DNA of 64,000 bases from Clostridiales bacterium (GTDB lineage Bacteria; Bacillota; Sulfobacillia; RBS10-35): assembly GCA_018729555.1 (NCBI GenBank), contig JAHHQG010000026.1, forward strand, positions 385,329 through 449,328, given 5' to 3'. Made by a program: the position numbers and the translations under genes. Below the pieces are notes generated by a model, which saw nothing but the letters and a program-made list of their open reading frames with translations, was not told the DNA's origin and searched no databases. This document shows, one piece after another, positions 32,099 through 38,610 of the stretch; position 1 is the first letter of the stretch; the number at the start of each line of letters is the position of its first letter.

Positions 32099-32147
32099 AT
32101 CATTCACGGCACCTTGGTAAGATGAAAGAGCGACAATCACATAAGCG

Positions 32148-32274
<127 letters not shown>

Positions 32275-32295
32275 ATCCTTCATTGGGTTGCGCCC

Positions 32296-37921: not shown

Positions 37922-37954
37922 CGGTCTTAAAAGGGGGCCCCTTTTGATTTTCGC

Positions 37955-37990
37955 CCTCAGGGTGTTGCCCTGCGGGCGAACTTTTTGTAT
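37955..37990 (+). terminator. intrinsic terminator
   Basis: TTCGCCCTCAGGG-TGTTG-CCCTGCGGGCGAA-CTTTTT (approximate coordinates). Confidence 0.85.
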
Positions 37991-38007: not shown

Positions 38008-38036
38008 TTGACGCCTGCCGCTCACCCGCGTAGAAT
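38008..38036 (+). promoter_or_regulatory. sigma-A type promoter for speD
   Basis: TTGACG-N17-TAGAAT. Confidence 0.75.
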
Positions 38037-38042
38037 GGCGTC

Positions 38043-38199
38043 GATTCATACAATCAGGGTCCTGGTTTTCGCTGTAAGGGTTGGGGCAACGGTCGGTCCG
38101 GCCGGCCATTGAGCCCGACTTCTCCCCCGGGGCGAAAACAAAGGCCCCGTCCGGTCTGAAAGGGCCGGAAAGCAAAACCTTACAAGGGGGGGTTTTTTT
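38043..38199 (+). promoter_or_regulatory. structured speD 5'UTR, candidate cis-regulatory RNA
   Basis: GTTTTCGC(38065)/GCGAAAAC(38132), GGTTTTcGCT(38064)/AGCAAAACC(38171), TGTAAGG(38073)/CCTTACA(38178); G7 RBS region followed by T7 and ATG. Confidence 0.5.
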
Positions 38200-38610
38200 A
38201 TGGCCACCGTGTTCAGCAGCCACGAGACCACCGGGCGCCACATCCTGCTGGATGTGTGGGGCGTCGATTTCCAGACTCTCAACGATCTCACTCGGGTGCG
38301 CCAATGGATGGTGGAGGCGGCCCAGGCGAGCGGTGCGACCATCGTGGACGCGGCGTTCCATCGGTTCCCGGAGCAGGGTTTCAGCGGAGTGCTGGTGTTG
38401 GCGGAATCCCACATCTCCGTCCACACCTTCCCGGAGCATGGATACGCTTCCTTCGATATCTACACCTGCGGGGACACCCTCGACCCATCCGTGGCCTGCG
38501 CCTATCTCGTGGAGAAGCTGGGTACCACCCGGTACTTCACCCGCCACTTCGTGCGGGGCATGGCCCAGGGGATCGAAGAACGAACGCCCACGGTGGCCAT
38601 GGGATCCTGA
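38200..38610 (+). CDS. speD: S-adenosylmethionine decarboxylase proenzyme
   Basis: GRHILLDVWGVDF, LAESHISVHTFPEHGYASFDIYTCGD. Confidence 0.96.
   Translation: MATVFSSHETTGRHILLDVWGVDFQTLNDLTRVRQWMVEAAQASGATIVDAAFHRFPEQGFSGVLVLAESHISVHTFPEHGYASFDIYTCGDTLDPSVACAYLVEKLGTTRYFTRHFVRGMAQGIEERTPTVAMGS

Follow-up and report, generated by a model that had tools for sequence, protein, structure and literature searches.

The speD gene, encoding S-adenosylmethionine (SAM) decarboxylase, lies within the 64,000 nucleotides of DNA analyzed here (the window), behind a sigma-70-type promoter and a long leader (Table 1). Its product matched PF02675 in the window's genome with 131 bits (E 3e-38). Promoter-like TTGAC...TAGAAT/TATAAT elements occur at the corresponding place in the leaders of relatives, and the position of the promoter would place the RNA start just 5' of the conserved motif described below. 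The promoter, the leader, its C5, G7 and T7 runs and the speD start lie in the sequence exactly where the original prediction had put them. A hairpin with a T-run (TTCGCCC...GGGCGAACTTTTT, 37930-37990) between the upstream gene and the speD promoter is probably the terminator of that gene. The sole Rfam match within the window is an FMN riboswitch (RF00050) at 32145-32277 on the forward strand (107.8 bits).

Table 1 Features of the speD leader (window positions)
Feature	Position	Strand	Basis or remark
Sigma-70-type promoter TTGACG-N17-TAGAAT	TTGACG 38008-38013, TAGAAT 38031-38036	+	sequence
P1a 5' strand GGG(T)CC	38057-38062	+	partner 38143-38147, T38060 bulged
P1b 5' strand GTTTTCGC	38065-38072	+	covariation; helix 1 of the original prediction
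Internal loop, 5' side, TGTAA here	38073-38077	+	TTAAA in most relatives; sequence conserved
P2 hairpin, GGGTTGGG (38078-38085) / CCCGACTT (38114-38121)	38078-38121	+	near-invariant pairing
C5, internal loop, 3' side	38124-38128	+	C-run in every leader inspected
P1b 3' strand GCGAAAAC	38132-38139	+	covariation, as 5' strand
P1a 3' strand GGCCCC	38143-38148	+	A-U/G-C exchange at 38059:38145
P3 hairpin TCCGGTCTGAAAGGGCCGGA	38150-38169	+	changes on both sides in 4 of 8 pairs
Variable linker	38170-38185	+	unconserved; holds 3' halves of helices 2 and 3 of the original prediction
G-run Shine-Dalgarno G7, partner of C5	38186-38192	+	in nearly all leaders
T7	38193-38199	+	directly before the speD ATG at 38200
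speD, S-adenosylmethionine decarboxylase, 136 aa	38200-38610	+	ORF; PF02675

Occurrence upstream of speD

Searches with SpeD in 61 related genomes yielded 30 loci, many of which share a block AATCAGGaaCCTaGTTTCGCTtAAAGGGTTGGGGC...GCCCGACTTCTTCCCCCGTGGCGAAAaCGATGGtCCCGTC, a hairpin, a linker and a G-run Shine-Dalgarno sequence upstream of speD. We refer to this conserved RNA as the speD leader motif. Every one of the 13 genomes of the window's order contained its core pattern. R1, a covariance model built from 15 leaders, matched 26 of the 154 genomes of the class, once each, and the loci that were read sit directly upstream of speD. On a phylum sample of 398 genomes, R1 recovered two further, distant true copies (L073 and L075), each of which precedes speD; another match (L074), away from speD, was discarded as false, being a P3-like hairpin alone. 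After addition of L073 and L075, the resulting core model (R2) matched 5 of 22 genomes in the order to which L075 belongs and 98 of 118 sampled genomes of the order of L073. We take the latter order to be the Bacillales from its gene order, from the sequence of SpeD and from a single named record, as the arrangement at L073 (glyceraldehyde-3-phosphate dehydrogenase, speD, nrdR) is the gapB-speD-nrdR order of an Anoxybacillus amylolyticus record. Model searches gave one match per genome.

Among the 20 Bacillales genomes missed by R2, 14 had no speD match at all and six carried speD. Four of these six possess a divergent copy of the motif that was lost by strict filters (L253-L256), and two are without it. 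Together, the 98 matches and four divergent copies place the RNA in about 102 of 104 speD-bearing Bacillales genomes, a figure that assumes that all 98 model matches lie upstream of speD, as did those that were read. Across the class Bacilli, 125 of 298 genomes contained a match to a core pattern, compared with a handful of matches for a reversed control pattern; among the listed matches at least three (L209 and two more), all away from speD, look like chance. No gene other than speD was found under the motif, and speD has no conserved operon partner there.

Phages gave no match to the leader motif, and four matches on viral contigs, away from speD, look like chance. The single match on plasmids (L263, NZ_CP015439.1) comprises gapB-speD-nrdR with the leader and is located on a 258-kb plasmid of Anoxybacillus amylolyticus. 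One Bacillales speD without the motif (L257, genome G565) kept its GGGGGAAAGG Shine-Dalgarno sequence and has perhaps lost the leader recently. Motif-lacking speD genes of the window's class (L019-L029) have short leaders, many of which end in a recurring AAAGGGGG(C/T)TG(A)TAATG-like start region that may be a remnant or some other control element. A SAM-I variant as functional replacement was not found in the motif-lacking Bacillales genomes, most of which are without speD.

Conserved architecture and covariation

The universal core of the motif consists of P1, an internal loop (UUAAA / CCCCCGUG), the hairpin P2, a linker and the G-run Shine-Dalgarno sequence. Hardly any variation is seen in the internal loop, UUAAA / (Y)UUCCCCCGUG; the tip of P2 (38086-38113) is variable and is longer in the window's leader. 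P1b, P2, C5 and the Shine-Dalgarno sequence are all that the copies in the order of L075 and most Bacillaceae-type copies keep. The window's class and several other families of Bacilli again have P1a, to which C38055-G38149 is a possible extra pair, and P3. P3-like hairpins tipped with CUUGAAAGGG are found in other Bacilli, and P3 is missing in L075.

As judged from the aligned leaders, covariation supports the helices P1b, P1a and P3. Parsimony on the SpeD tree counted 55 double compensatory changes over the six pairs of P1b among 181 distinct leaders, as compared to 0, 4, 10, and 4 when the partner strand was slid by -2, -1, +1, and +2 positions, and the counts from two MAFFT alignments agree. 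The P1a pair 38059:38145 is AU in 10 and GC in 3 cases in A1 and AU in 14, GC in 5 and GU in 1 in A3. P2 pairs are standard in 98-100% of cases in the 181-leader count, percentages that lean towards the helix since its 3' strand was placed by maximizing pairs; double changes in P2 are few because the helix is nearly invariant. The invariance of C5 is partly built in, as the pattern or model by which leaders were collected contains it. C5 is, however, also kept in four model matches missed by the stricter pattern (L148, L171, L177, and L182) and in the divergent copies L253-L256, which were found by their SpeD.

The original prediction had described the leader as a riboswitch-like structure of three competing helices, and comparison with homologous leaders confirms it in part. 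Its first helix is P1b, the conserved and covarying stem. Helix 2 (GGTTTTcGCT/AGCAAAACC) and helix 3 (TGTAAGG/CCTTACA) can form in this genome but are broken in a genome of the same genus, which reads CGCTGAAAGG ... AAAGATGAACCTACA there, and are absent from the other relatives; being unconserved, they were dropped as functional parts. A repeat scan had recovered the inverted repeats of helices 1 and 3. Folding energies of the window's leader differed only weakly from those of shuffled sequences (z -1.2 for 38040-38210 and -1.7 for 38055-38199), and thermodynamic stability was therefore set aside as evidence, so that conservation in relatives decided which parts matter. The architecture that emerges in place of competing helices comprises P1, P2 and P3, to which pairing of C5 with the Shine-Dalgarno sequence may add an H-type pseudoknot; these two runs had been named as possible partners and are both conserved throughout and complementary. 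Deep conservation, covariation and constant association with speD strongly support the view of a riboswitch-like structured leader, whereas other parts of the earlier interpretation did not hold.

Relation to known RNA families

Rfam 15, with all the SAM, SAM/SAH and polyamine-related riboswitches that it includes, contained nothing relevant at the gathering score for the window, or for the leader region at E up to 5, nor was a relevant match obtained for five relatives, six short relatives (E up to 2) and six more. These results agree with the prediction that the leader belongs to no recognized SAM riboswitch class. No description of the motif was found in the open full-text literature, which takes in few subscription journals and bioRxiv preprints, or by targeted look-ups in two large RNA-motif surveys; a closed-access or preprint description may exist.

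The one published spermidine riboswitch class found is a SAM-I variant of Bacillota polyamine genes, including speD, with a four-stem aptamer, 13 examples and control by transcription termination (Salvail et al. 2023, PMC10853860). The speD leader motif resembles it as a leader RNA of polyamine genes in Bacillota and in the genetic OFF switch expected here. In contrast, C5 of the motif's P1-P2 core may form a pseudoknot with the Shine-Dalgarno sequence, and the motif does not match SAM-I and precedes speD alone in hundreds of genomes without a conserved terminator. The four SAM-I stems P1-P4 around a junction were not seen, as the conserved P1 encloses P2 alone, and the relatives have no conserved hairpin with U-tract corresponding to the terminator platform of the SAM-I variant, although single instances are possible. 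The speD leader motif is a different RNA.

SAM-II, SAM-V, and preQ1-II riboswitches form H-type pseudoknots whose second stem takes up the Shine-Dalgarno sequence, and preQ1-II embeds a hairpin in a loop. The proposed fold of the speD leader motif is alike in outline, in its Shine-Dalgarno second stem and, for preQ1-II, also in the loop-embedded hairpin. It differs in that the hairpin lies in loop 1, in its other loop sequences and other genes, and in the lack of any match to the covariance models of these families. In Bacillus subtilis, a 79-nt RNA at 2966841-2966919, within the speD-gapB intergenic region, carries the label 'Unknown or speD leader region' in an Hfq co-precipitation study that gave no strand, structure, conservation or function for it (PMC3574147). 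The motif has the matching place in Bacillales (gapB-speD-nrdR), a likeness of intergenic position.

Proposed control of SpeD synthesis

We propose, with moderate confidence and from comparative sequence evidence, that the motif is a conserved cis-regulatory RNA of the speD mRNA, probably a translational OFF riboswitch for spermidine, SAM or decarboxylated SAM. It shares with riboswitches in general the conservation, across a phylogeny, of a structured leader on a metabolic gene. In the proposed model, P1 encloses the internal loop together with hairpin P2, and some lineages have P3 downstream. If the signal is abundant, C5 of the loop would pair with the G-run Shine-Dalgarno sequence and thereby exclude the ribosome; the resulting H-type pseudoknot would have P1 as S1, C5:G5 as S2, P2 embedded in loop 1, and GUG as loop 2. 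If the signal is absent, the pseudoknot would open and SpeD would be made. C5 follows P2 and precedes the 3' strand of P1, and the Shine-Dalgarno sequence lies 3' of P1. At -10.4 kcal/mol, the C5:Shine-Dalgarno duplex comes close to the -11.0 kcal/mol for pairing of this G-run with the anti-Shine-Dalgarno sequence, which fits a competition for the ribosome site. From this geometry, the energies and the lack of a conserved terminator, we infer translational repression with the pseudoknot closed; conservation of C5 and the G-run likewise suits translational control. Without a conserved operon partner of speD, the element would control one step, and its signal should report on that step, i.e., spermidine, SAM, decarboxylated SAM or SpeD itself. 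The likeliest signal would be a metabolite of the step: spermidine as end product, SAM as substrate or decarboxylated SAM as product. Pseudoknot formation, the direction of control, the ligand and its binding are all put forward here as what we infer for the motif.

Several observations temper this proposal. The C5:Shine-Dalgarno helix is invariant and complementary throughout the leaders, and a helix that never varies gains no support from covariation. Several families have G instead of T as the base before C5, yet A is retained after the G-run, so that the C5:G5 helix is not extended there. G-run Shine-Dalgarno sequences also precede speD genes without the motif (L019-L029 and L257), and the G-run alone is therefore no evidence. 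Many metabolite riboswitches precede several genes of a pathway, which counts against a metabolite ligand for a motif confined to speD.

The main rival, which we consider unlikely, is autogenous control, in which SpeD protein or its proenzyme would block the Shine-Dalgarno sequence by binding to the leader, much as ribosomal proteins act on their own leaders. It would account for the constant pairing of the motif with speD and no other gene, for speD standing alone in its unit and for the highly conserved loop sequence. One RNA core is, however, shared by deeply diverged SpeD lineages, and a motif-lacking clade neighbors the Bacilli clade in the SpeD tree (midpoint-rooted, about 110 residues); moreover, we know of no RNA-binding by SpeD. 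The stability of P1 and P2 and the complementarity of the Shine-Dalgarno sequence to C5 could also reflect a fixed or temperature-dependent translational structure without specific ligand, such as a thermometer or mRNA-stability element. Thermometers and stability hairpins show little sequence conservation, whereas loop nucleotides that are unpaired in P1-P3 are near-invariant across distant classes, which makes such a structure improbable.

Transcription attenuation, with C5 and G7-T7 as hairpin and U-tract, had been an option of the original prediction, and G7T7 is indeed present in the window and in two or three near relatives. Yet most relatives lack the U-tract despite keeping C5 and the G-run, which is followed by CTTTTCTTATG, ACTTTTTTCATG, AAACGATCAATG and the like, and C5 is separated from G7 by about 57 nt with other helices between. 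An attenuator is accordingly the least credible of the explanations weighed. We regard it as very improbable, too, that the motif belongs to an independent gene for a small RNA or Hfq target that lies upstream of speD by chance. The 79-nt RNA found between speD and gapB in B. subtilis, which co-precipitates with Hfq (PMC3574147), favors such an RNA, but a stable leader fragment would give its peak equally well, and the motif invariably adjoins speD on the 5' side in the same orientation, with a Shine-Dalgarno sequence complementary to its core.

The riboswitch proposal extends to an undescribed class that would be near-universal on Bacillales speD and present also in the window's class and the order of L075, and that would sense decarboxylated SAM, SAM or spermidine via a Shine-Dalgarno pseudoknot and so set the entry of SAM into polyamine synthesis; we consider this fuller version as likely as not. 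The restraint of SAM decarboxylase in Bacillus-type bacteria, at the committing step of spermidine synthesis, is unexplained by any RNA family found, and the presence of the RNA on nearly every Bacillales speD means that short constructs in B. subtilis can address it directly. Binding of decarboxylated SAM or spermidine by a fold unlike SAM-I would define a new aptamer, and binding of the leader by SpeD would amount to a metabolic enzyme regulating its own synthesis; both outcomes would be new to the spermidine pathway. Useful natural loop variants are provided by L148, L171, L177, L182, and L253-L256, in which the GUGG after C5 and/or the UUAAA loop is altered and P2 and C5 are intact; L256 has GAUGU/ACAUC as P1.
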